This document shows, one piece after another, positions 32,996-53,000 of a DNA stretch of 64,000 nt. The position numbers were made by a program, and so were the translations under genes. Position 1 is the stretch's first letter. Each line of letters starts with the position of its first letter. The notes below the pieces were generated by a model that was not told the DNA's origin, made no database searches, and saw only the letters and a list, made by a program, of their open reading frames with translations. The DNA lies in the NCBI GenBank assembly GCA_003116975.1, contig BGKB01000242.1, forward strand, positions 248,001 through 312,000. The letters are read 5' to 3'. Source of the DNA: Aurantiochytrium sp. KH105 (taxonomy: Eukaryota; Sar; Bigyra; Thraustochytrida; Thraustochytriidae).

Positions 32996-35065
32996 TCAGT
33001 CCCTGAAATCAATGCCGATGCCAAGTCCAATCATCAAAAGAGCCACAACTTGCGTCATTGCAAACTCTCCTGCACGTGCTCGAACTGCTAATGATGGCGC
33101 CAGTGTCTGATCGCCCCCGTTTGATTCCGACGCCTCAGGTGATTCCGTCGGTCCTCCCGTTGGGAAGGGCGTGGGCGGTGTTGGCGATTGCGAAGGAAAT
33201 GGCGTTGGCGATCCTGTTGGCGACATTGAGGGAAATGGTGTTGGCGATGTCGATGGCACCCCCGTCGGAAACGAGGTTGGCGCCAGCGTGTACCCCTCGC
33301 ACGTGTCTCCAGACCATGCGCATAGAAAGTGCTCTTGCGACAAGCATTCTGAGCTGCTCGCGTAGAAATTACATGGATCATCCAAACACCGGGGCTCATA
33401 CGAGGCCTCGGCCGTGCAGGACGGCGTGCGAACGTTCCACAACATCGATTGTAGCCGTTCATATGCCTCCGTCTCGCTCGTGGCAAGATCTGTCTCCTCG
33501 AAAGGATCCGAAACGATATCAAAGAGCTCTAATGACCCTTCACGCGGCTTGTTCTGGACCAGCTTGAGCACCTTTTCTGGCCACTGTGAGAGATCATAGA
33601 GACCGAAGCCACATCCTGCGTACGTGTTCCACATCACTGGGCATACCTGATCATCGTCCTTTTCCTTGCCATCTTCCACAAAGCACATCTCCGTATATAC
33701 ATAGTCACGCGAGCTGGCATTTAACCCAGAAGCGGTGTCATTTTCGCTGCGCAAGAGCGCTTCGAGGCTCATACCTCCGCCTGCAACTTTGAGTGCATCA
33801 AGGGAGGCATCGTCCGGGGCGATACCTGCTACTGCTGCAAATGTCAGCGGTAAATCATACAGGGCAATCGGATACATTGACGTGGTCCCTGCTGGGATGG
33901 CCTCCGGCCACCACGCCAAAAAGGGGACACGGACACCACCCTCGTAGAGGCGGCGCTTGATACCACGAAGACCTCCGGTTCCGTAAAAGTCCGTGCGTGG
34001 ATCGTAGTCTGGATCTGCATAGGCCGCCTTGTGAGCGCCATTATCGCTCGTGAACATCACCAGTGTCGAGTTCTCCATCTCATGCTCTTTGAGCTTGGCA
34101 AGCAAGAGTCGCATGTCCTCGTCAATGGTGTACTCCATCATGCTCATCAGTCCACGGATCGCAGCTGAGACGCGACCCGTGCCTTCGAGATTGCTCTCTG
34201 TGTATCGCCCATATGAAGGGACGGGATTTGTCTTTGTCTCGCATGTGCCCGAGGAAAGACGATCTTCCACGTACTCCCAGCTCGTAGCATGACCGCTTGT
34301 GGTGGCCCAGTACAGAAAAAAGGGCGTTGCGTCAGCCGCTGCTTCGTCGATGACCGAGAGTGCCGTGTCGCGGATGGCAAAGTCAAAGTACGTGCATGCG
34401 TCCGTCTCCGAGCACTTCGATTCACTCGCGTCGGAATTCTCGCTGTACGTGGTTGATACGGGAGAATTAGCAGCACTTGCTGTGCATGACTCGATCGTGC
34501 GCGGAAAAGCCTGCCCAAGCGACTTGTGCGTAAACTTGCCAAAGAACTTGTCAAATCCTTGCTTGCACGGACTTCCCGATGAGGTCTCGCTCGTGGCAAC
34601 ACCCCACTTGCCCACAGCATACGTCGCATATCCCTGCTTTGAAAGAATCTTGGCCATGGTCGTTCGATCCGTCTCAATATCTACGTCGGCCGATTCCGGT
34701 CCATACCCATTGCCACGAACATACTGGTTGCCAGCGGAGACACCCGTAAGGAGCGAATGGCGGGCAGGCGAGCAAATGGGTGAGCTGGAAAAGGCGCGCA
34801 AAAAGCGCTTGCCCTCGCGGGCCATGCGCTCGAGTGTGGGTGTCTGGATACGTCTTGCCTCCGGAATGGCTTCTAGTGCTGATGTGTCGTCAACAAAGGA
34901 CCACTCGGGCGCATGTTGGAGCACGGAGCCGCTGCCAACATCGTCAGCCAAGTACAGCACAATGTTCGGCTTTGTTCCCGAACAGGAGTGTGATGTCAAG
35001 GCAAGTGTGAGCAAGATGATGACCTTGGTCGCGGCATGTCTGCGTGCCCTCGTTCGCCGTAGCAT
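32996..35065 (-). CDS. Secreted sulfatase A
   Basis: 689 aa from ATG 35065. The longer frame to 35329 only adds an Arg/Gly-rich leader; from 35065 a signal peptide appears (KVIILLTLALTSHSC). The type I sulfatase fold is indicated by NIVLYLADDVG (metal-binding Asp pair), CSPARHSLLTG (CxPxR, whose Cys becomes formylglycine), GKWGVAT and FTSDNGAH. The C-terminal third has a Cys-rich segment, then SPTPFPS linkers and a short hydrophobic tail that might be a GPI signal. It should hydrolyse sulfate esters outside the cell or in the wall; substrate unknown. It is the closest relative of sulfatase B across the mobile element. Confidence 0.9.
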   Translation of the reverse strand: MLRRTRARRHAATKVIILLTLALTSHSCSGTKPNIVLYLADDVGSGSVLQHAPEWSFVDDTSALEAIPEARRIQTPTLERMAREGKRFLRAFSSSPICSPARHSLLTGVSAGNQYVRGNGYGPESADVDIETDRTTMAKILSKQGYATYAVGKWGVATSETSSGSPCKQGFDKFFGKFTHKSLGQAFPRTIESCTASAANSPVSTTYSENSDASESKCSETDACTYFDFAIRDTALSVIDEAAADATPFFLYWATTSGHATSWEYVEDRLSSGTCETKTNPVPSYGRYTESNLEGTGRVSAAIRGLMSMMEYTIDEDMRLLLAKLKEHEMENSTLVMFTSDNGAHKAAYADPDYDPRTDFYGTGGLRGIKRRLYEGGVRVPFLAWWPEAIPAGTTSMYPIALYDLPLTFAAVAGIAPDDASLDALKVAGGGMSLEALLRSENDTASGLNASSRDYVYTEMCFVEDGKEKDDDQVCPVMWNTYAGCGFGLYDLSQWPEKVLKLVQNKPREGSLELFDIVSDPFEETDLATSETEAYERLQSMLWNVRTPSCTAEASYEPRCLDDPCNFYASSSECLSQEHFLCAWSGDTCEGYTLAPTSFPTGVPSTSPTPFPSMSPTGSPTPFPSQSPTPPTPFPTGGPTESPEASESNGGDQTLAPSLAVRARAGEFAMTQVVALLMIGLGIGIDFRD

Positions 35066-35370
35066 TTCCAGTCCTCGCTCAGGCTCTGTCGTTGGAGAAG
35101 AAGCGCGCGCCGTCTTCACGATTGAAGGTGACGCAATGGTTCGAAAGTCCGCCCGCTCGCCGCGCGTCGCAAAGGCCACACACGTAGCGCGAGCTCCAAT
35201 GCTGACCCACGCGCCGGCATCAAGTGTCCCTGCCGTCGCGCCGCGCGTCCTCCCTCCTCGCTGCCAAGCAGCGATTCTCGTCTGGCCGCGGCGTGCACGC
35301 CCTGACTGACGCCCTGCTCGACCGAGCAACGATAGGCGGTCAACGCCGAGAGGTTAGAAAATAGTTTTGT

Positions 35371-35423
35371 TAACGTTAGCTTTGCAAACCTATTCACTAA
35401 CGACGGTCGTTAGGTCGTTAGGG
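35371..35423. repeat. Left-end cluster of CTAACG/CGTTAG motifs with perfect 8-bp inverted repeat
   Basis: TAACGTTA palindrome (35371-35378); CTAACGAC (35397-35404), one base, GTCGTTAG (35406-35413); then TCGTTAGGG (35415-35423). Candidate recombinase-binding or crossover region. Confidence 0.6.
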
Positions 35424-35482
35424 TAGGAACGAATATACTAATCAAACGATCATTGGTGAACAATATTAGCGCGGATTGTATT

Positions 35483-35513
35483 GATCCGAGTATTCCTTCT
35501 AGAAGCTCGGATC
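35483..35513. repeat. 8-bp inverted repeat before tnpA
   Basis: GATCCGAG (35483-35490) and CTCGGATC (35506-35513) flank a spacer containing TTCTAGAA. Possible operator or hairpin about 75 bp upstream of the tnpA ATG. Confidence 0.6.
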
Positions 35514-35585
35514 GTCTACGCTGTTTGGTGATCCAGCAAACCCGAAAGGTCGGGCAGCAAAACCGAAACGAGACCTCACCCACGC

Positions 35586-36269
35586 ATGTCTGACGTGAGT
35601 GGGGGTCGGGCAGAACCCGTCTTCAGGTCCGGTAAATACTTCGTGGAACGTCTGGGTGTGTCGCAAGACTTTTTACGTAAAAGCGCCGACAGCAAACGTA
35701 TCCGCTTGATTCGTCTCCCTGGTGGAATGCGATGCTATTGCGTCTCTGATGTCTTCGAGCTCGTCGGGCTTCCGCGTGCCGACGCCGGAGACGGACAGTG
35801 CGTCATATACGCACGGGTCTCTTCCGCGAAGCAGCGTGGCGACCTCGAACGACAGGTCGCTGAGCTCAGTCGAGCATACCCCGATCACCGCGTCATCTGG
35901 GATACCGGACCTGCCGCCAATTTCCGTCGGAAAGGCCTGCAAGCCCTTTTGGACCTCGCTTTCAACCGAAGTCTCAAGGAAGTTGTCGTCTTGCACAAGG
36001 ACAGGCTTGCGCGTGTTGGATACCCCATCCTGGAGCAGATCTTTGCGAAATTTGGGGCTCGGGTCGTGGTTCACAGCCAGTGCAGCGACATGTGCACAGC
36101 CGACACTGAACTCGCCGACGACCTGCTCGCTATCACGACGCTCCTTGTGGCAAGTCATAACGGACGTAGAGCAGCTGCGAATCGCAAGAGACGCCGCGAA
36201 GAGGCAGAGGAAGCTAGAGGAGAAGGTGAAGAAGACGCTGGAAGAGCTGGACGCACTCGCCGCTTCTGA
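35586..36269 (+). CDS. tnpA: IS607-family serine recombinase (TnpA)
   Basis: 227 aa, ATG confirmed. A MerR-like helix-turn-helix comes first (residues about 15-62: LGVSQDFLRKSADSKRIRLI, PGGMRCYCVSDVFELVGL), then the small serine-recombinase domain with YARVSSAKQ (catalytic Ser79, Arg77), DLERQVAEL, LHKDRLAR and ELADDLLAITTLL, ending in GRRAAANRKRRR. HTH first and catalytic domain second is the reversed order peculiar to IS607. It catalyses excision and integration through a 5'-phosphoserine intermediate. No motif is lost. Its last ~100 nt overlap the extended frame of the nuclease in another frame. Confidence 0.92.
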   Translation: MSDVSGGRAEPVFRSGKYFVERLGVSQDFLRKSADSKRIRLIRLPGGMRCYCVSDVFELVGLPRADAGDGQCVIYARVSSAKQRGDLERQVAELSRAYPDHRVIWDTGPAANFRRKGLQALLDLAFNRSLKEVVVLHKDRLARVGYPILEQIFAKFGARVVVHSQCSDMCTADTELADDLLAITTLLVASHNGRRAAANRKRRREEAEEARGEGEEDAGRAGRTRRF

Positions 36270-36369
36270 TGATGCAGAAGCTACGCGAGAGAAGCTGGAG
36301 AAGAAGGTAACCCGGGCGCAAGGGGAGCTGCAGGCGATCGCCGCGTATCGACAGCAGTATGAGTGGTCC
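36150..36369 (+). other. Upstream in-frame coiled-coil extension of the nuclease
   Basis: Same frame as the nuclease and without stops. It reads QLRIARDAAKRQRKLEEKVK then KKTLEELDAL, REKLEKKVTRAQGELQAIAA and so on, with heptad spacing, but has no ATG. It could be reached by non-ATG initiation, reinitiation after TnpA, a +1 frameshift from tnpA, or splicing. Confidence 0.55.
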
Positions 36370-37653
36370 ATGATGTCCCGGGAAGACAAGGTCCCGTCGG
36401 GAGAGAACGAATTAAACAAGAACAAGCGGAAGGCGTCAACTCTCGACGACGATGAGATCGAGATCGACGAGTCCAAGACTATTAGGGCCCGCAAAATTCG
36501 CGTTTATCCGACAAAGGAGCAAGAACAAAAGCTGCTCAGATGGTTTGGAACTATGAGATTCGCCTACAACAAACTGGTGGAGAAGTTCAGGCATGTCGAA
36601 CATGAAGTGAGCAAGACGACAATGCGCCACGAGCTATCCCAATACGCGAAGGCGCATGATTGGTTCCAAGAGGTTCCCCACGAGGTGAGGGACTCCGCCG
36701 TGCGAGACATGGATAAGGCACGGCAAGCTCATTTCGCGAAGAAGAAGAAGGGCGAAACGGAAGTGAGCGAAAAAGCAAAGTTCAAGTTCAGGACGAAGAA
36801 AGCCAGACAGCAGAGCTTTGAAGTGCGTGCACGTGACTGGAATCGCAAATCTGGGAAATATGCTGGTCTATTTGGACCAGCTTTACGCGCGGCAGAGGGC
36901 ATATTGCCGACCGAGGTGGAAGCGACGGTTCGTATTGTCAGAGACTTTCACGGCTGTTTCTATGTGTGCATCCCAATGAGTGTTGAGATCAAGGGCGATG
37001 ACCAGGCCCCTGAGACCGGCTTTCACTCGACGGTGGCCATGGACCCGGGCGTGAGGTGCTTCATGACGACATTTGATGCGGATGGTCTCGTCACGGAATG
37101 GGGCAAGTCTGATATACAGCGCATTTATCGCTTATGTCGGCATGCGGATCGTCTTCAAACAAAGATTGAGAACGCCAGCAACAAGCAGCAACGTCGTCGA
37201 CGCCATAGAGCATGGCGCAAGATTTTCGTGCGCATTCGACGTCTCGTCAAGGAGATGCACAGGAAGTTGGCCTCTTGGCTATGCAACAACTATCGTGTTG
37301 TTATTCTCCCCACCTTCGACACCAATCAAATGGTCCTTCGTGGCTCGCGGAAGATTACATCCGCTACGGCGCGAAAGTTGTTGACGTGGAGTCACTACTC
37401 ATTCAGGCAACACCTTCTCGAGCACGCGGAACTTAACTCATGGACCAAGGTGTTCATCACGGGCGAGGCCTACACTACCAAGACATGCGGCCAATGTGGT
37501 CGTCTCCATACAGGCATTGGTCGTGACAAGACCTTTCGCTGCCCACACGCGAACTGTTCCTACGTCGCCGACCGCGATATTAATGGTGCGCGCAATATTC
37601 TTATCCGATTCATGACTACCTACATGGGTCGGTATGCGGCCTCTGTCTTTTGA
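36370..37653 (+). CDS. TnpB/Fanzor-type RNA-guided nuclease
   Basis: 427 aa from the first in-frame ATG (36370). The frame is open upstream and a convincing coiled coil begins about 36160, so the natural start may be earlier. An NLS-like KNKRK lies at residues 17-21, then KIRVYPTKEQEQKLLRWFG, the conserved TnpB N-terminus. RuvC-I is AMDPGVR (Asp225). The usual RuvC-II Glu site reads VVILPTFDTN (Pro314). An alternative Glu366 sits in GEAYTTKTCGQCG. Zinc ribbon Cys are 373, 376, 391 and 396. RuvC-III is DRDINGARNI (Asp403). This arrangement matches eukaryotic Fanzor and related TnpB nucleases, which cut DNA under guidance of an RNA from the element's right end. Partner gene: tnpA. Confidence 0.9.
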   Translation: MMSREDKVPSGENELNKNKRKASTLDDDEIEIDESKTIRARKIRVYPTKEQEQKLLRWFGTMRFAYNKLVEKFRHVEHEVSKTTMRHELSQYAKAHDWFQEVPHEVRDSAVRDMDKARQAHFAKKKKGETEVSEKAKFKFRTKKARQQSFEVRARDWNRKSGKYAGLFGPALRAAEGILPTEVEATVRIVRDFHGCFYVCIPMSVEIKGDDQAPETGFHSTVAMDPGVRCFMTTFDADGLVTEWGKSDIQRIYRLCRHADRLQTKIENASNKQQRRRRHRAWRKIFVRIRRLVKEMHRKLASWLCNNYRVVILPTFDTNQMVLRGSRKITSATARKLLTWSHYSFRQHLLEHAELNSWTKVFITGEAYTTKTCGQCGRLHTGIGRDKTFRCPHANCSYVADRDINGARNILIRFMTTYMGRYAASVF

Positions 37654-37760
37654 CAAGCCTTTGCCTCTACGGCCTGTGATGGGCAAGCGTAGTCCTCTTA
37701 CGATCCCATCATTGCAGAAATCTATACCAAGGATGCTCCCAGTCTCCCAAGAGGAAAACG
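37654..37760 (+). ncRNA. Candidate guide-RNA (omega/fRNA) scaffold of the Fanzor element
   Basis: Right after the nuclease stop: TGATGGG (37677-37683) pairs with CCCATCA (37705-37711). Inside it CGTA (37688-37691) pairs with TACG (37699-37702) around a GTCCTCT loop. The loop bases TCCTCT (37693-37698) can pair with AGAGGA (37750-37755), giving a pseudoknot. Position and topology fit the guide RNAs of TnpB/Fanzor elements, which overlap the 3' end of the nuclease gene and reach the right end of the element. Structure was drawn by eye, not folded by program. Confidence 0.55.
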
Positions 37761-38555
37761 AGGTTTTCAGCTGAGTTATAGGTTTTAATAGTAGCGAGAT
37801 GACCGGCTCTCTTTCATTTAGGAGACAGCGAGATCCGTGACTGACAGTGAGTTGAGACAACCTGCACTTTTTGGTGTGCGCGCATGATGGACCCCGAGCC
37901 TTGCTTGAGCTAGGCGTATCGCATGGCGATGCGCTCGCTCGCATTTCGAGTTCAGTCGTTAAGCTTGAGCGAGGACAGTTTGCGTACATGATTCAGACTT
38001 GTTTGATACATTGATGTGTTTTCCAATCTCATCGACCCATTTTGCAGGCTAAAAGGAGCACAAAGTGCGAAAGGAGTCTGCGCAGGTGAGCAGAGGGTAA
38101 ACTCGACAGCAAACAGATTTGCCCATGACAAAATCCAATACATTTTTATGACGTTACCATGTCTGTTTGAGAGCAAGAATAAAGAAGATGACTCTTGTAA
38201 ACGTAAATGCAATTCCCCTCCGCGCGCAGCGCGATGGGAGAAAAGAAAATTGGTGTCTCTCGCAGCTACGGGGAGGCTTCGTTGATGTTTTCTGGTGTGC
38301 AAGGGAGTCGAATGGTCAGTGGGAGCCCGCGTGCAAAGGCTGCACAGCAACATGATAGGTTTGGAACACCTGTTCTGGGTTAAATATGATGTGTCACAAA
38401 GTCGCCTTTTTGTGGTCTGATATAATGAGGCAAGGGCCAAATGGAGAACAGGCACTAAAAGGCTGCCAGCTGCTGGCGAGAGACTCGCCGCCAAGGATTG
38501 CGCAGCTCGCCAGTGAGAACTCACTTTAGCAATGTTCAATAAATTATACATGTTA
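37761..38555. other. Right end of element and spacer to sulfatase B
   Basis: No gene. It contains GTCGTTAAG (37955-37963) and a decayed copy of the sulfatase B 3' end at about 38435-38515. Confidence 0.5.
38435..38515 (-). pseudogene. Decayed duplicate of the 3' end of sulfatase B
   Basis: GGCTGCCAGCTGCTGGCGAG at 38461 onward and AGACTCGCCG match, with substitutions and small gaps, GGCTGACACCTGTCGGCGAG at 38591 onward and AAACTCGACG. The offset is about 130 bp. The original encodes the C-terminal hydrophobic tail. Confidence 0.6.
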
Positions 38556-40775
38556 TCAGGCCAAAGCCCAATGAAGGGAAAGCGCCAAAAGGCTGACACC
38601 TGTCGGCGAGAAACTCGACGCTGAAGATGGCGCAGATCCAGCACCTGCCTGGTCTTCACTGGCTGCATCGCTGTAGTCGTCAATGGCCTCACTCTCTGTT
38701 GGGGAAGGCGTTGACATGGTCGGTGCAAAGGTTGATTTCCATTCAAGAGTAGGGCTCGGCGTCACGATTCGTGTGGGGTAAGACGTAGGAGCAAATGAAG
38801 GAGAAGTAGTAGTCATTGTTGTCTCACGTGATGTAGGATAGGACGTGGGAGCAAGTGAAGGCGAAGAAGAAGAACCCATGGTTGGCTCACGCGATGTTGG
38901 GAAGGGCGTGGGAAGCGGAGTGGGCGCCACTGTTGGGAAAGGCGTCGGAAATGACGTTGGAGCCGTTGTCGGGGAATTTGAAGGAGCCAGTGTGTATCCT
39001 TGGCAAGAGTCCTCTGTCCAAGCACACAAAAATCCCGTTTGCGAAGCGCACGCCGTTTCGTTGGTGTAAAAATTGCACGGGTCGTCAAGACATCTAGGCT
39101 CATACGAGGACTCAGCGAGACACGAGGGCGTGCGGGCCTCTGCCACCATGGCCAGGAGTCTTTCAACCTCGTCCGGACTGTCTTCGGCAAGATCATTTTC
39201 CTCAAAAGGGTCCGCGAGAATATCGTACAGTTCAAGCGAGCCTTCACGAGGTCTGTCTTGAACGAGCTTGAGCACCTTTTTCGGCCACTGAGACAAGTCG
39301 TAAAGACCAAAGCCGCACCCGGCATACGTGTTCCATGTCACGGGGCACACCTGATCCTCTGAACGCTCCTTGCCATCCTCCACAAAGCACATTTCCGTGT
39401 ACACGTAGTCACGCGAGCTGGCGTCAAGGCCAGATGCGTCATCATCCTCGCTGCGCAGGAGCGCTTCGAGGCTCATACCGCCACCTGCAACATTAAGTGC
39501 ATCCAGCGAGGCGTCGTCAGGGTCGACACCTGCCACTGCTGCAAAGGTCAGGGGCAAATCATACAGAGCGACCGGATACGATGTCGTGGTTCCGGCCGGG
39601 ATCGCGTCGGGCCACCACATCGAAAGCGGCACACGAACGCCGCCCTCGTGCAGCCGCCGCTTGATGCCACGAAGTCCACCCGTTCCGTAAAAGTCGGTGT
39701 GCGGATTGTAATCGGCGTCCGCATACGCCTCTTGATGAGCACCATGATCGCTCGTAAAGACTACGAGAGTCGAGTTTCCGAGCTCGTGCTCTTTGAGCTT
39801 TGCGAGCAAAAGTCGCATGTCCTCGTCGACCGTATTTTCAATCATGCTCATGAGCCCGCGAATCTCGGGTGTCACGCGACCCGTGCCTTCAAGATTGCTC
39901 TCTGTATACCGTCCGTACGAGGGGACGGGGTGGGTTTTCAGTTCACAGTTCTTCTTTCCGAGACGGTTCGTCACGTACTCCCAGTTAGTAGAGTGTCCCG
40001 AGGTCGTGGCCCAGTACAGAAAAAAGGGCGCGGTGTTGGTGGCTGCTTCGTCTATGAAAGTGAGCGCCTGGTCGCGGATGGCAAAGTCAAAGTACGTGCA
40101 CGCATTTGTTTCAAAGCATTGAGCTTCACTTGCATCTGCATTCTCGCTGTACGTGGTTGACACGGGCGTGTCCGCGGCGCTTGCTGTGCACGACTCGATC
40201 GTTTGCGGGAAAGCCTGCCCAAGCGACTTGTGCGTAAACTTGCCAAAGAACTTGTCAAATCCTTGCTTGCACGGACTTCCCGATGAGGTCTCGCTCGTGG
40301 CAACACCCCACTTGCCCACAGCATACGTCGCATATCCCTGCTTTGATAGAATTTTGGCCATGGTCGTTCGATCCGTCTCGATATCTACGTCGGCCGATTC
40401 CGGTCCATACCCATTACCACGAACATACTGGTTGCCAGCGGAGACACCCGTAAGGAGCGAATGGCGGGCAGGCGAGCAAATGGGTGAGCTTGAAAAGGCG
40501 CGCAAAAAGCGCTTGCCCTCGCGGGCCATGCGCTCGAGTGTGGGTGTCTGGATACGTCTTGCCTCTGGGATTGCTTCTAATGCCGATGTGTCGTCGGCAA
40601 AGGACCACTCGGGTGCGTGTTGGAGCACGGAGCCGCTGCCAACATCGTCCGCCAAATAGAGGACAATATTGGGACGAGTTGCAGCTGCTGCGGCAGTGCT
40701 TTTTTCTGGTGTTGTAAATACTGCAAGAAGAGCAACTATGAGAAGCCTGCAAAGGCCCGTTTGCTCGAGGAGCAT
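38556..40775 (-). CDS. Secreted sulfatase B
   Basis: 739 aa, ATG confirmed; signal peptide RLLIVALLAVFTTPEKSTA. Same core as sulfatase A, with very similar stretches: NIVLYLADDVG, CSPARHSLLTG (formylglycine Cys), GKWGVATSE, FTSDHGAH. The C-terminus has a Cys-rich piece, a longer set of PTSFPTPFPT-type linkers than A, and a hydrophobic end (GVSLLALSLHWALA) that could direct a GPI anchor. Long identical nucleotide blocks with A (around 34.5-34.9 and 40.2-40.6 kb) show recent duplication. Substrate unknown; marine sulfated polysaccharide is plausible (inference). Confidence 0.9.
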   Translation of the reverse strand: MLLEQTGLCRLLIVALLAVFTTPEKSTAAAAATRPNIVLYLADDVGSGSVLQHAPEWSFADDTSALEAIPEARRIQTPTLERMAREGKRFLRAFSSSPICSPARHSLLTGVSAGNQYVRGNGYGPESADVDIETDRTTMAKILSKQGYATYAVGKWGVATSETSSGSPCKQGFDKFFGKFTHKSLGQAFPQTIESCTASAADTPVSTTYSENADASEAQCFETNACTYFDFAIRDQALTFIDEAATNTAPFFLYWATTSGHSTNWEYVTNRLGKKNCELKTHPVPSYGRYTESNLEGTGRVTPEIRGLMSMIENTVDEDMRLLLAKLKEHELGNSTLVVFTSDHGAHQEAYADADYNPHTDFYGTGGLRGIKRRLHEGGVRVPLSMWWPDAIPAGTTTSYPVALYDLPLTFAAVAGVDPDDASLDALNVAGGGMSLEALLRSEDDDASGLDASSRDYVYTEMCFVEDGKERSEDQVCPVTWNTYAGCGFGLYDLSQWPKKVLKLVQDRPREGSLELYDILADPFEENDLAEDSPDEVERLLAMVAEARTPSCLAESSYEPRCLDDPCNFYTNETACASQTGFLCAWTEDSCQGYTLAPSNSPTTAPTSFPTPFPTVAPTPLPTPFPTSREPTMGSSSSPSLAPTSYPTSRETTMTTTSPSFAPTSYPTRIVTPSPTLEWKSTFAPTMSTPSPTESEAIDDYSDAASEDQAGAGSAPSSASSFSPTGVSLLALSLHWALA

Positions 40776-41631
40776 CGTCTTCGACTTCGTCCCGTCCCGC
40801 CCTGTCTAGTTTCACGCCAGGCGCCCTTGTCCTCGCAGCGTGCGTGGCGTTTCGTGTACGCCTCAGCTCACTCGCTCGCCGTCTTGGTGATCAACAGCCT
40901 CTTACTCGCTCGCTCGCTCAGTTTCGAGGTCTGCGGTTCTTTGCGTCTTTGGAGAGTTTGGCGCGGTCGAGAGCGCTCGGCCCCTTGCGGACGCGCGTTG
41001 TGCGTGCTGTCTTTGGGGAGCAGAGCGGGTCGCGCTGGCTTGTCTCGGTCGTCTTCACTTTCCCAACAATGTCCGGACTCTCAGGCCGTGCACGCCGCGG
41101 CTCTGCGCTGCGTCCGGTACAAGGATTCCAGCTGTTTTATATGATGTGTAAGGATACAAGACTCGAAGACTCGAAAAATACAGCATTGGCTGGCGAGGCC
41201 GCCACATTGCTACTTCGTTTCTCGCCGTGTTCCTGAGAATGGACTCGCGTGCGATGCAAGATGGCATCCCGGTGCAAGTGCGACGCAACGCGACGCGACG
41301 CGACGCGACGCGAGGTGAGCTTGCGAGGGTGTTGAAGAGCCGGAGAGGAACGACAGCTCGAGGCCGGCACTGCGCAACGCCTGCTAAGCTGCTCGCTGTT
41401 GGCACGATTCATCCGTTGCTGCGAGAATGGTACTAGCAGAGAGGTCAGTCGGCACTGGGACCGGTTCTGCGGCACCTTCTGCACGTCCCAGGCGCGCACG
41501 CGCTCTAGCGCATCATTGTCGCGGGCGCTGACTGCGACACTCTAACAGGGAAGGATGGAAGGAGGGAGAGAGTATAATCAGGTGCGAAAAAGGGAGTCGG
41601 CCTCGGCCGGTCACAAGCACCACAAATGAAT

Positions 41632-41735
41632 AAGCTGGACGCTGGTGGGTGATTGTAAGCTAGCTTATGTCTATCAAGGTTATCAAGCTGGACGACGGGC
41701 GATTGTAAGTTAGCTCGCGTTTATCAAGGTCATCG
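41632..41735. repeat. Two-copy tandem duplication of about 52 bp
   Basis: AAGCTGGACG...GATTGTAAG(C/T)TAGCT...TATCAAGGT(T/C)ATC occurs at 41632-41684 and again at 41685-41735 with several substitutions. Confidence 0.8.
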
Positions 41736-42727
41736 TCATTGTGCGGCATCACCATGACCATCGCCATTGTCGTGATTATTATCATGCGTGAGTGAGTGGA
41801 TAAAAATAATAAAAATGCACAGAAAGCTTACAACCTGGTTGCTGGCCGATGGGCATTTCTTGCATTCGGGCAAGTGTGGACGTGCTTCGTTCTTACCATT
41901 GCGTGCGCCACGCCGAAAAAAACAAGCAAATGCATTCGCCGTCTCCGTGGATTAGTGGAGTTTCCTATTCCATCCAAGTTGGCCGCCATTGCGAGTCGCC
42001 TCTTGATTCAGAGGCGCCCTCGCGTCGACCCACCTCGACCTTGCCACGACCTCGCCGCGACCTCGCCTCGACCCGCCCGTCGCAGCGAGGCGGCGAGGCG
42101 GCTCGCCGGTCAGCCTCCGAGTCGCCCCTCCGGTCGGAGAGGCGCGCCTCCTCGCTGTTTTCAGAGATGGTCACGGGCTAAACGTATCATCATCGGCGGC
42201 GCGGCGGCATGGCCTGCCTACCTGCACGCCGCGGCGCCCCTCCTATTGCTGCTAGTCAGGGCAGCCGGCCAAGATGGCGCGTAAGTATCAGCGATGCAGG
42301 TCCTCGAGAGGCTCTGAGGCCTCGATGAGCGGCATGAATGAACGATTGATTGCCGATTGATTGATTGATGCAGGAGCAAGCACGAATGAAGGCAAGGCCA
42401 GAGGATGTGTGCGGTTCAGGCGCATAAAGTCGGTCCGCCGCGCCTACTCCATCAATCGATCGATCAACCAGTCGATCGATCGATCGACCAGTCTATCAAG
42501 CTGCTTGCTACAAGCCAACCTGGCTGCGGCCAAGTCGCTGCGAGCCGCGTGGCGCCGTGATCGCGGTCGCGGTCGTGGAGTGGCGCGCGGTGGACGCCTG
42601 ACAGTGAGTCAGAGTCTAGAGCGGATTCACGTTTGACCGGTGACGGCTTGGCGCAGGTTGGGTTTGGTGAAGGGAGAGAAACAACAACAGAAAGCAAAGA
42701 GGAAGGGGGAGAAAGCAAGGAGAGGAA

Positions 42728-42778
42728 GGGAAGAAAGAAAGAATGAAAGAAAGAAAGAAAGAAAGAATGAAAGAAAGG
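42728..42778. repeat. (AAAG)n imperfect microsatellite
   Basis: AAAG units with AATG interruptions, on a purine-rich strand. Confidence 0.9.
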
Positions 42779-43069
42779 CGGTGAGGCGCACTCCACTCCA
42801 CTCCACTCCTCTTGCGCGACGGCACCGAGGTGGAGACCGCCGGCTGGCCAGACAGGCAAAACCCGATCGACCGGTCGACCTTGCGCCGCTCGCAGGCGCG
42901 AGGGTCAAGAACAGGCCAGAGCAGGCCACGCCAGGCCAGGCTAGGCTAGGTCAGACCGGAAGGCAAGCCAAGTCAAGGCGAGAGCGGCGAAACGGTGGTG
43001 ATTCTGTCGCGCGCTTGCGATAAATAAATTCTGAAACGAGCGCGCGCCTCGCGTCTCGTGCCTTGCGCA

Positions 43070-45157
43070 ATGAGACAAAACCTTGCGGCCGCGCTGGGAT
43101 GCGTGCTCGCAGTTGTGGCGAGCGGACCTCGAGGCGCGGAGGCGAACAAGCCTAAGAATGTCGTATTCTACCTCACCGACGACCTCGGCGTGGGCATGAT
43201 TAACCAGCACGCACCGGACTGGACTGTCTTCGAAAACACTACGTCCTTTGAGAATTATGCAGAATCCCGCAGAATTCGGACGCCAACACTCGAAAAATTG
43301 GCGCGCGAAGGCAAACGCATGCTTCATTCGTACGTGTCCAGCTCCGTATGCGCGCCATCACGGCACTCGCTCATTACCGGCGTGCAGACCGGTGTCGCAG
43401 AGATCCGAGGCAACGGCTTCGGACCCGATGGAAACACCGACGCCGACCTCGACCCAAACCGCACAACGATCGGCGAAGTACTCTCTGCGGCTGGCTTCCG
43501 CACTGGCGCCGTGGGCAAGTGGGGTGTCGCCACCAACGAGACTTCCTCCGGGTCCCCGTGCAAGCGCGGCTTCGACAGCTTCTACGGCAAGTTCACGCAC
43601 AAGTCCATGGGCGCCGCCTTTCCTACCACCATGCTCTCATGCTCCTCTGACGACCCGGACAACGTCACGACGCACGAGTTTCCGGAGAATGAGGACTCCT
43701 CAGCAAGTCTGTGCGTCGTTGATAACGAAACCGAAACGCCCTCTTCGTGCTCGCACTTCGACGTGCTCACGCGTGAAGCCGCGCTGTCCTTTGTGCGCGA
43801 GTATGAGAACGACTCGACACCTTTTTTCCTGTACTGGGCGACCTATGCGGGACACTCTGCGCTGTACAGCTCGGAGAACAAGTTCGAAAACTGCGAGGAC
43901 AAGACCTACCCAGTAACCTCGTATGGAAGGTTCACGAAAAGCGCTGTCGCCGAGACTGGTCGGGCAACTAGCACGATTCGTGGTCTCATGGCCACCACAG
44001 AGTACCTCCTGGATGAGGATCTCCGCCAGCTTCTCGCGACGCTTGAAGACGTGGGCGCGGACGAAAACACCATGATCATTTTCGCGACGGATAATGGACC
44101 TGGCAATGGCGCCTTCATGGATCCGGACATCGATGTTAACCGCGACTTCAACGGCGCGGGTGGACTTGTCGGCATCAAGCGTCGCATGCGCGAAGGCGGT
44201 ATTCGCAGTCCTACCATTGTGTGGTACCCAAACAAGGTTCCCGCAGGCACCACGTCGCACTATCCGATCATGCACTACGACTGGGCGCTCACCATCGCTG
44301 GCGCCGTGGGCATCCCGAGCAGCAGCCCGACTCTCGACCTGCTCAAGTCGGACGGCGCAGGAGGAGTGGACCTCTCTGATCTGCTGTGGGCCAGCAAAGA
44401 CAGCAACGCTGTCAGCAAATCGACCCGATCCTGGGCTTACAGCGAAATTTGCTTTATGCGTTCAGGAACAACAAAGAAGAACAAGGTGTGCCCCGTCTTT
44501 TGGGTGAGCGATATCGGCTGCGCATTCGCGTACTTTGATCTTTCCCAATGGCCCAACAAGGTTTACAAGCTGGTGCAGAACGAGCCCCTTCAAGACCTTG
44601 AGCTTTACGATATTCTCGACGATCCCTATGAGACCAAGGACCTCGCGTCGAGCAAGACCAACAAAGTTACAACGCTGCTTGCAGAGCGCAACTCTATTCG
44701 GACACCCTATTGCGATGTGGAATCGGATTATGATACTGATTGCTACCCAGACCCTTGCATGATCAACGACAAAAAGAAAACGTGCCAGCAAGATGCCAAC
44801 TGCACTTGGAGCAACAAAGAATGCCTCACGGCAAACTGCACCGACCTTTCGCGGCGTCACTCGGACTGCAAGAGCCGAAGCGACTGTTATTGGCAACCTT
44901 GGCAACGTCTCAACTCCGATCGCTGCATCGAAGATCAGGGAAGCACAGAGGCCAACTATGAATATGGCTGCTCCGACGAGCGTGCCTCTGCGCGCGCTTG
45001 TAAGCGGAACAAAGTGTGCGAGTACAACTCGGGCTCGTGCTCGCTCAAGACATGCGCCGAGCTTTCCTACAAGAAGGGTATTTGCAAGGGACGCGCTGAC
45101 TGCTCGTGGAACGCGAACGCAGCTCAGAAGAGCGCCAGGTGTCAAGATGCTTCCTGA
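43070..45157 (+). CDS. Secreted sulfatase C with Cys-rich C-terminus
   Basis: 695 aa from ATG 43070 (the frame opens at a GTG four codons earlier). Signal peptide LAAALGCVLAVVASG...AEA. Core motifs: NVVFYLTDDLG, CAPSRHSLITG (CxPSR, formylglycine Cys), GKWGVATNE and FATDNGPG. It shares the KFTHKS(M/L)G segment with A and B but is clearly more diverged and lies on the opposite strand. Instead of Pro/Thr linkers it ends in repeated Cys modules (e.g. CQQDANCTWSNKEC, CKSRSDCYW, CKGRADCSW), with no hydrophobic tail, so it is probably a soluble secreted enzyme. Confidence 0.9.
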   Translation: MRQNLAAALGCVLAVVASGPRGAEANKPKNVVFYLTDDLGVGMINQHAPDWTVFENTTSFENYAESRRIRTPTLEKLAREGKRMLHSYVSSSVCAPSRHSLITGVQTGVAEIRGNGFGPDGNTDADLDPNRTTIGEVLSAAGFRTGAVGKWGVATNETSSGSPCKRGFDSFYGKFTHKSMGAAFPTTMLSCSSDDPDNVTTHEFPENEDSSASLCVVDNETETPSSCSHFDVLTREAALSFVREYENDSTPFFLYWATYAGHSALYSSENKFENCEDKTYPVTSYGRFTKSAVAETGRATSTIRGLMATTEYLLDEDLRQLLATLEDVGADENTMIIFATDNGPGNGAFMDPDIDVNRDFNGAGGLVGIKRRMREGGIRSPTIVWYPNKVPAGTTSHYPIMHYDWALTIAGAVGIPSSSPTLDLLKSDGAGGVDLSDLLWASKDSNAVSKSTRSWAYSEICFMRSGTTKKNKVCPVFWVSDIGCAFAYFDLSQWPNKVYKLVQNEPLQDLELYDILDDPYETKDLASSKTNKVTTLLAERNSIRTPYCDVESDYDTDCYPDPCMINDKKKTCQQDANCTWSNKECLTANCTDLSRRHSDCKSRSDCYWQPWQRLNSDRCIEDQGSTEANYEYGCSDERASARACKRNKVCEYNSGSCSLKTCAELSYKKGICKGRADCSWNANAAQKSARCQDAS

Positions 45158-49642: not shown

Positions 49643-50068
49643 TTCGAAATGACGCTCTTGCAAGAGGATGGCAAGTCGTAAAACCGATTTCTACATTCAT
49701 TGCTTGTTTTACGTGCGATTTTAGGCAAGAAGAAAGTTCAATATAGTTTTCAAAAGCAAAATGGAAAGGTACAGATCATATTCTGTCGGGTGGCCACATG
49801 CGGAAGTGTATCGGCTTTGTCTGGAGTTTCGTCTTTGGAAAAGAAATGAGGTCACTGTAATGCTTGTCCCGCGCAAGGAACCTCGACATGAACCACCCCT
49901 ACGAGAGAGCAGCTTTTGCTCTCTGGTCCTCTTGAGTACAATGGCAAGCCGCAATTTGGTGGTCGCCGATCATGTATTCGAATGCAGAATCTGAAGTTGG
50001 TGACCAATTTTACTTCTCATGAAATATCTTAGCCCATGTCCATTGATCAAGTGGCCGATGTCTCGTAA
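49643..50068. other. Intergenic, convergent 3' flanks
   Basis: Spacer between the secreted-protein gene and the giant WD40/LysM gene; nothing recognised. Confidence 0.5.
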
Positions 50069-53000
50069 TTATTTGGAGGAGGAGGATTCTGCCAGAGGCT
50101 TTCTTCGCAACGTTGCCTCCTCGCGAGGAGCTTGTGCAAAGCTTCCTGTCGACGTAGCGCCCGCCTTTTGCACAATTAGACGCATACCCACATAGAGCGT
50201 GCGCCCAACATCCTTGAGATTGTTCCATAGCATGAGCTTCTTCGTCGGGATGCCGTATAACTTTTCTAGACTCGCGAGCGTTTCGCCCTTTTGCAAAACA
50301 TGAAGCTTGTCCTGCGTCGGCAACACCTCGTTTTTGTCACCCGACCAGAACCAATAACGCATGGTGCCGTCTGTACTCGCAGAGAGAATTCGCCATGAGT
50401 CGAATTGCATGGCCAGGATCTTGTCTTCATGCCCGCGCAGCGTCAGCAGTCGATTCCCGGACGAAACATCAAAGACGCAGATCGTGGCATCAAGAGATGC
50501 GCTCACAAGCTTGGTGGCATCAGCTTGTAAGCTGCGAATAGGAGCATTGTGACCCACACAAATGTGCAATCGAGTCACGCTTGCAACATCCCAGATAAAA
50601 ATGCGGCCGTCCTCGCCTCCGCTAATGAGTTCAGTTGCAGACAGAATAACGCAGCTGATGGGGCAATCATGCCCAATGAATCTCTTTCCGTTCGCCTTGG
50701 GGTCAGATCCCGCGCCAGGGTCCAAGGCATACGGCCAGACGCGTACTTCAAGATCGGGGCCAGCCGTCGCCATCGCGTAGTGGTCGACCGCGATGCATGT
50801 CACGGCGCGGTTGTGGAGCGCTGGAATGATGCGCACGCAAATTCCATTCTGCTTGAGGGACCACACACGAACACAGTGCGCTGCATCGCCGGAAACAAGT
50901 TTGACAGCATCGGCCCACAGGCTCCAAATCGTGGCCTCATGACCACTGAGCAAGAGCTCGCACTTGAACGGACGGCGGTCTTGCCACACTCGAATCATGC
51001 GATCGACTCCACCACTAATAATTCGACGTTCTGCGTACGCGAGAGCCGTGATTGAGCCGTGATGGCCTGGAATCTCCAGTGAGGGGTCCTTTTTTCGCTT
51101 TGCTTCAAATCGCAGCGGCAACGGAATCTTCGACCCGTAATGGACACCGAGAAGTGCACCGTCTCGCAAATCAAAAATGTAAATGGAATTGCGGATACAA
51201 GCAGCGAGGCGCTCCACGCCCCCCGTCGCCATGCCCGAGACGTTGCGACTGCGCACATTTGCGGTGTTCAGCGCAACATAGCGAAATTGCTGTCGTTCAC
51301 GCATCGTCTTGCGCATCAGAGTGCCGAGCTCAATCGCAAGATCTTGTTCGAGGCCCTGCATATCGTCTTGAGCGTTGCTCGCTCGCGTCTCGGCGCGGCG
51401 GCTCGCCTCTTGACATCGCTCCATTTCTCTCTCGAGCCGATCAGCCTCATTTTCTAGATTGTTCTTGAGTTGCTGCACCTTGAATCGCTGGAGGATACCG
51501 TGCACGAGGTCAGAGTCGAGTTCTTCTTCCTTGCACTCGTCCACGACTTGCAGCTGCGCACGAATATCCTTGAGTCTCTTCATATCACTGTTGTAGAGCC
51601 GCGAAATTTTCTTGGCTTCCGCGAGAATGGTCTCTACCTTGTTGCGATTCTCTTCAATCTTGAGGCGCAAGTCAGGTACCATGGCGGATACAACTTCGAG
51701 CTCAATGACTTGACTGCGCTCCGCTGTCACAGACACAAGCTTTCGTTCGGCCTCTGCGATTTTAGCAAAGGTGTTGGTCACTTTGGACTCGAGCTCAAGC
51801 TCCAAGGTGTCTGCACGCTCCTCAAAGGCCTTGCTGTTCTCCTCATCGTACATGTCAGTGTAGGCGCGCTGCAGCTGTCGGCAGGCGAGCGCCTGATGCG
51901 GGCGATCATTGAGGTCTTCGAAGATGAAAAGTGCGCGATCTGCATAGTCGATTGCGGCCTTGTGCGCAGACCGAACCATGTTGCACTGCGAAATGCCAAG
52001 GAGCGCAAGACCTTCGAGTCGATGCGATTTCGCTTCGCAGGCCAGCGAGCGCATCCGATCGAAATTGACCATCGCTCGGTCCACCTTGTGGAGCGCTTGC
52101 ATGCATTGGGCGATTCCATAGTAGCACTCACAGTGCGCGAGGAGGTCGCCCCTTCGCTTTTCGAGGCGCTGTTCGACCTCTTGGCGTGTCTCCTTGAAGT
52201 CATCCCATGCCGTTCGAACCGAAGAAATGCGCGCACTTTGCTCGTGAACGAAACGCGTGAAACACGCAAGCGCCTCGTGGTGATGTCCCATATCAAGATG
52301 CGCTTGACCTTGCTTGAGCGCGACGAGGTGTTGCGCATATTCCTCGGGATGATCATGAATGTGCTGGCGGAACTCGGATTCCTTTGCGTTAAAGAATGCG
52401 CTTTTTGCTTGATCTTTCCGCTGCGCCTCTGTTCTTTTCACATCTGCAAGGTCCTCGGCCGTGCCACGAAGTTTGAGCAGAACCTCGGCAGCTCCTCCTT
52501 GAAGGTCTGCGCGGTCAACGCGAGCCTGCTCGAGTAGTGCTGATCCGGTTCCAGAGACCTCGCGCAGCCTGGCCTCTTTCAACACCTCGTGTTGGACAAA
52601 AGCTGTCCAAGTAAACCACGCACGATAAAGATCTCGGTGTTGCATGCGCATCAAAAAGCGAGAAGACCGTCCACGCTGCTGTCGTGCCGCGCGCGCGACC
52701 CTGGACCAGTGCTGGAATAGATCGTAAAGAATGCGGTCGCGCCAGCTGCGGACTCGCTCAAGGGCCTTCTCGCGTTTGGCCATTTCTCTTTCAAAGAGAG
52801 CCATGCGGGCTCTGCGATCCTTGAGCGCGTCAGTGACGACATCCATTCGAGTTCGCAGCTCCTGAAGCTTGCGTTCGATGCCAATCTGTTCGCGTTTACC
52901 CTCGGAAAGGTGCACATTGTTGCTGCGAATCTCTTCCTCGAGGGCTTCTCGAAAAGACACAGTGTGGAAACGCTGCATGCGCCCGTGCATGGCAGAGCTG

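Follow-up and report, generated by a model that had tools for sequence, protein, structure and literature searches.

A very likely recently mobile IS607-type transposon with a Fanzor2 gene in a probable thraustochytrid genome

According to passages of PMC3627910, eukaryotes and their viruses have IS607-like elements that carry Fanzor2 and a serine recombinase, and three Phytophthora species seem to be among those for which a table of that paper gives Fanzor2. For other Fanzor2 proteins, RNA-guided nuclease activity and the expression of guide RNAs are shown in parts of PMC10432273. The role of a Fanzor for its own transposon in a eukaryotic nucleus is a standing question. Here, we describe such an element in bases 248001-312000 of contig C242 (hereafter, the window, meaning the whole 64,000-nucleotide stretch analysed), which belongs to a 76-Mb assembly of 367 contigs. 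An initial annotation of the window had proposed that a eukaryotic IS607 element encodes TnpA and a Fanzor here, and family models, signature residues and the grouping in a phylogenetic tree all agree with this proposal. Our results make it very likely that the locus is a recently mobile, low-copy IS607 transposon with a Fanzor2 gene, heterozygous in a diploid, probably thraustochytrid genome; the mechanism proposed below is the likeliest way in which it would operate. Its parts are as follows (window positions).

35345..37796, + strand: complete IS607-type transposon of family 1, 2.45 kb, no terminal inverted repeats; delimited by the ends of the sequence shared among copies and by contig C48, which is without the element
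35345..35440, + strand: left end with five GTTAG/CTAAC motifs (four GTTAG and one CTAAC at 35353-35417)
35586..36269, + strand: tnpA, IS607 serine recombinase of 227 amino acids, an N-terminal DNA-binding part followed by the catalytic domain (NF033518, Pfam Resolvase)
36370..37653, + strand: fanzor2/tnpB, RNA-guided nuclease of 427 amino acids from ATG 36370 (426 from 36373; NF040570; frame open from 35722)
37651..37796, + strand: candidate reRNA (omega-RNA) scaffold, with a hairpin showing two compensatory pair changes between families 1 and 2
37797..37817, + strand: expected guide, the first ~20 nucleotides of the right flank, predicted from the TnpB/Fanzor layout in parts of PMC10711439

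The sequence common to the three complete copies in the genome stops at window positions 35345 and 37796. The right end had been placed at 37970 in the initial annotation; positions 37797-37970 are host DNA, and the interval suggested there for a transcript (37.6-37.97 kb) overshoots the true end by 174 bp. Terminal inverted repeats are absent, as there is none among 11 inverted-repeat pairs that links one end with the other, and comparison of the joined flanks with the element-free contigs C48 and C297 revealed no target-site duplication beyond the core. Five GTTAG/CTAAC motifs are reached in only 1 of 666 bins of 96 nucleotides in the window, which by arithmetic is that of the left end; short repeated motifs at IS607 ends are described in passages of PMC6188088. 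The right junction is GCG at all four family-1 sites, and the left junction varies.

TnpA passes the NCBI IS607 model NF033518 with 124.4 bits (cut-off 110; residues 19-199 on profile positions 3-186 of 187) and matches the solved chains 6dgc, 6dgb and 3ilx, which are IS607 TnpA catalytic domains. The motif YARVSS begins at residue 75. In an alignment of 121 relatives, comprising family 2 and 120 listed of 578 hits, R77, S79, D86, R89 and R143 are kept throughout and D139 and R140 in 120, and the catalytic residues examined are all present in the window copy. The serine recombinase with an N-terminal helix-turn-helix and YARVSS that had been recognised at the outset is thus upheld.

The Fanzor protein passes the RNA-guided TnpB model NF040570 (146.7, cut-off 100). 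Among solved structures, the best match is the TnpB-like protein L79 (9b0l, E 1.3e-22, alignment over residues 38-411), presumably a mimivirus Fanzor2. Among 20 aligned rows, D225, P226 and E366 are invariant and G227 is nearly so; the cysteines of the C4 zinc finger (C373, C376, C391, C396) and the final RD (R402, D403) are also invariant. Passages of PMC10711439 give DPG in RuvC-I and a relocated glutamate in RuvC-II as the Fanzor signature, and the pattern of D225/P226/G227 with E366 therefore corresponds to it. Aligning both proteins with IS607 TnpA and Fanzor sets, a check suggested earlier, accordingly returned models that were passed and signature residues that were present, and the RuvC and zinc-ribbon motifs first noticed in the second gene proved to be invariant active-site and C4 residues.

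The two genes had also been described as overlapping. This holds for the open frames and not for the genes proper, as the probable fanzor start is ATG 36370 or 36373, 100 bp beyond the tnpA stop, and family 2 has an ATG at the corresponding place. Over 34 codons around the tnpA stop and ATG 36370, some of which overlap tnpA, families 1 and 2 show a degree of apparent conservation in the Fanzor frame, and a Fanzor N-terminus longer than that from ATG 36370 is possible. Several of 12 relatives fetched show similarly long frames over tnpA. Neither fusion of TnpA to TnpB nor protection of an overlapping frame was accepted as an explanation, because the long open +1 frame across tnpA was reproduced in 6.4% of 5,000 synonymous shuffles, and TnpA conservation can account for the ITDV-like stretch that is shared.

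The further copies and empty sites that the initial annotation had proposed to look for were found in the assembly. A DNA search of the genome identified three complete family-1 copies (the window, C165:100721-103175 and C266:35804-38256) and a fourth, on C27, in pieces. DNA identity is 99.4% between C165 and C266, 98.7% between the window and C165, and 98.3% between the window and C266, whereas, short low-complexity hits aside, the ~1.5-kb flanks of C165 and C266 resemble neither one another nor the window. With unrelated flanks and such high identity, the three complete copies are separate, recent insertions; recent mobility of this family is well supported by these comparisons. Contig C48 is collinear with the window on either side of the element and is without it, and window positions 50000-52000 are matched there at 98%, at the expected distance and in the expected orientation. 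We take C48 to be the other haplotype, so that the window insertion would be heterozygous in a diploid genome. Likewise, C9 is the element-free partner of the C165 site over ~1.5 kb per side, with several junction gaps, and C297 that of the C27 copy over similar lengths, with both flanks kept. No partner contig was found for either flank of the C266 site, and three of the four family-1 sites thus have an element-free partner.

The C27 copy (C27:514737-519613) is split by two nested insertions with terminal inverted repeats and also contains an N gap. The first insert has inverted repeats CCTGGCTA and a 5-bp CTAAC duplication, and the second has inverted repeats GGGTAAAG and a TA-like duplication.

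Protein searches of the genome gave at least 19 TnpA and at least 24 TnpB matches, the window's own included. In family 2 (C200 and C201), identity to the window proteins (tblastn) is 62-63% for the Fanzors and 67-69% for TnpA; the two copies are 98% alike, lie at different sites and both miss the first ~27 TnpA residues. The right flanks at the family-2 sites on C201 and C200 have the partners C54 and C97, with at least 400 nucleotides by the left end unmatched. Because of this mismatch with C54/C97, these were discarded as empty sites, and family 2 may in fact have its left end at another position. Family 3 comprises 12 TnpA loci (13 of the at least 19 TnpA matches), with TnpA 36-39% identical to that of the window; in 16 of the 20 rows shown the final letters are GTAACGG, and some loci are without internal stretches of the element. 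In addition, C11 and C18 carry TnpB-like stretches that are 84-86% alike over ~3 kb and near which the fetched DNA shows no TnpA match; they perhaps represent a Fanzor element that lacks TnpA, or the two haplotypes of such an element.

Comparison between families 1 and 2 gave a proportion of synonymous differences (pS) of 0.79, which is saturated, and of non-synonymous differences (pN) of 0.20 for the Fanzor over 422 codons, and a ratio of non-synonymous to synonymous rates (dN/dS) of 0.22 for TnpA over 164 codons. At this distance, both proteins look constrained over the long term.

To place the Fanzor among its relatives, a quick tree of 104 rows was built and rooted at its midpoint (5 own rows, 63 protein hits, 22 of 80 bacterial loci and 14 of 36 viral loci; the protein hits were drawn from 120 listed of 228 and include six of the seven eukaryote-named ones). 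The window and family 2 fall in a group of 60 rows with 52 metagenome and six named eukaryotic rows, with a Shimodaira-Hasegawa-like approximate likelihood ratio (SH-aLRT) support of 92; the named eukaryotes grouping with the window Fanzor are Lipomyces, Diversispora, Gigaspora and Ectocarpus. All bacterial and viral rows used, five metagenome rows and family 3 lie outside this group, the family 3 Fanzor forming a very long separate branch. Among the matches listed, the nearest sequences beyond the host genome are metagenomic and 48-50% identical. In the viral scan, the single-protein query found no relative and the alignment query found the 36 loci.

Beyond this anatomy, the most likely course of events is taken from work on IS607 and Fanzor proteins. 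TnpA would bind the repeated end motifs and synapse the ends, and the element would be excised as a double-stranded circle, as in its relatives. The circle would then insert at a short CG or GC(G) sequence, with no duplication of the target. The Fanzor would bind RNA from the right end, with the right flank supplying the 3' part of that RNA, and by analogy with related systems the complex may recognise and cut the empty copy of its own site. Homing repair, again as in relatives, would use the filled sister or the filled homologous chromosome as template and so restore or copy the element.

The predicted guide RNA was assessed using three helices taken from the fold of the window right end and scored on five aligned right ends (four distinct). 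Paired cells amounted to 95% in helix 1, 75% in helix 2 and 93.8% in helix 3, and in helix 3 both members of two pairs differ between families 1 and 2. The true register beat all six slid registers on cells paired, which is partly expected for a structure derived from one row, and 10 of 500 shuffles reached the observed percentage paired, cells changed on both sides and covariation score. Speaking against a scaffold, two of the five covariation measures, taken over four distinct right ends, do not exceed the shuffled background: the count of pairs with both sides changed was reached in 340 of 500 shuffles and that of additional pair types in 450. The fold energies of the right end are ordinary (z -0.84, -1.19). 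No Rfam match was found for the right-end scaffold. Support for a guide-RNA scaffold at the right end is thus modest and mixed.

Guided drive of insertion sequences has been reported for IS200/605 elements on bacterial plasmids (parts of PMC11870625). That the present element is a natural homing drive, whose Fanzor cuts the empty allele and leads either to conversion or to an end-joining scar that blocks recutting, seems improbable. The empty alleles facing complete copies show differences at the junction, of 1-3 nucleotides in C48 and in the form of a gap cluster in C9, and C297, which faces the broken copy, retains the predicted target at the right junction. Within 60 nucleotides of the site, C48, C9 and C297 have 3, 6 and 2 gaps, compared with 0.25, 0.38 and 0.11 per 100 bp elsewhere in the flanks. 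These gaps were not relied on as cutting scars, because they cluster in stretches without long open frames around the site. Similarly, the 3-nucleotide gap in C48 becomes 1 nucleotide if the core is CG and not GC, and CG is favoured by the C54 contig at a family-2 site.

Several observations weigh against a transposon that still functions as proposed. The window TnpA has M at residue 48, where the 110 relatives with a letter have K in 76, R in 12 and M in 3, and the tnpA genes of C165 and C266 are both without three codons (residues 174-176), among which L176 is kept in 116 of the 121 relatives. Synonymous and non-synonymous changes in the Fanzor number 1 and 6 between C165 and C266, 3.5 and 8.5 between the window and C266, and 2.5 and 4.5 between the window and C165; as these differences are few and mostly non-synonymous, nothing indicates present selection. 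Furthermore, the element-free contigs fit never-filled and vacated sites alike, and the core dinucleotide is ambiguous, the divergence of C48 depending on the core assumed. A family that spread lately and has recently died, with tnpA impaired in every copy and the Fanzors drifting as passengers, would account for a change at a conserved tnpA place in each complete copy (the same loss in C165 and C266, the substitution in the window), for the excess of non-synonymous changes and for a fourth copy broken by nested inserts and an N gap. This account is quite possible, though on balance we doubt it: both frames are open in all three complete copies, M at residue 48 may be tolerated given its presence in three relatives, the changes are too few for a test of drift, and most sites have an element-free partner. 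Nor is any inactivating change common to the three complete copies; such a shared change had been named in advance as fatal to the initial annotation. The copy had been called intact and possibly autonomous; its frames are indeed intact, whereas the altered tnpA places and the absence of a purifying signal among copies do not favour autonomy, and the window copy may or may not be autonomous at present. Mobilisation in trans by the TnpA of family 2 or 3, making the state of its own tnpA irrelevant, is unlikely. The family 2 right end ATATAGCG resembles that of family 1 TAGTAGCG, and 12 family-3 loci carry TnpA matches, but both family-2 TnpA copies are truncated at their start, and family 3 has a distant TnpA and the right end AGTAACGG.

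A contaminating bacterial or viral origin, or recent acquisition from cyanobacteria, is scarcely credible. Among the 80 listed bacterial loci, the first 40 are indeed all cyanobacterial, but they are just 32-38% identical, against 50% for metagenome proteins, and the tree sets the Fanzor apart from the bacterial and viral rows used. Moreover, the element occurs in four contigs, with element-free partners, and the contig carrying it is 423 kb long, with tubulins and other nuclear genes. This contig and the syntenic haplotype C48 without the element exclude the contaminated assembly that had been raised as a concern. The ordinary nuclear gene surroundings described at the outset were borne out by a scan of ten neighbouring frames, which encode two tubulins, two sulfatases, a DEAD helicase, a protein kinase, ELMO, SPX, a lipid-droplet hydrolase and leucine-rich repeats. 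The very likely interpretation therefore remains an IS607 transposon with Fanzor2, recently mobile in a eukaryotic nucleus. The insertion lies between two sulfatase genes:

32996..35329, - strand: sulfatase-like gene adjoining the insertion (open frame; similarity)
38556-40775: sulfatase (Pfam Sulfatase match)

The C48 copies of the two flanking genes cross-match at 75-83% DNA identity. A further sulfatase gene (Pfam) is found at 43058-45157, and the sulfatase cluster spans window positions 32996-45157. A neighbouring sulfatase is 82% identical (85% query coverage) to an arylsulfatase of Hondaea fermentalgiana, the sole organism-named hit of 11. Because of this match, the host is placed as a eukaryote close to Hondaea and, as Hondaea is a thraustochytrid, is probably one too.

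No publication on IS607 or Fanzor in thraustochytrids, or on Fanzor in Aurantiochytrium, was found in the open-licence literature. In a young family with filled and element-free alleles, a single cell contains the guide, its matching site and a template for repair; hence, excision, guided cutting and homing are testable in the native host instead of with a transplanted enzyme. Compared with the TnpB-like protein L79 (9b0l), the active-site motifs are the same, whereas the sequence is distant and the host different. With the cyanobacterial proteins termed pro-Fanzors in PMC10711439, the element shares the protein family and, according to passages of that paper, the IS607 context, but these are 32-38% identical (first 40 loci listed) and fall on the opposite side of the tree. 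The bacterial and archaeal IS607 TnpA system, as described in parts of PMC6188088, has the same domain order, catalytic residues, end motifs and lack of target duplication; IS607 itself has the core GG there, and the core here is CG or GC. The closest correspondence is with the Fanzor2 of eukaryotic IS607 elements (passages of PMC3627910 and PMC10711439), with which the present element shares TnpA with Fanzor2, the lack of terminal inverted repeats, DPG in RuvC-I, the relocated glutamate and the C4 zinc finger. It differs in its host group, which did not turn up in the papers searched, and in the presence of several young copies with element-free partners in one genome. Eukaryotic IS607-Fanzor2 elements are thus already published, and the one described here is another, well-preserved and readily testable example.

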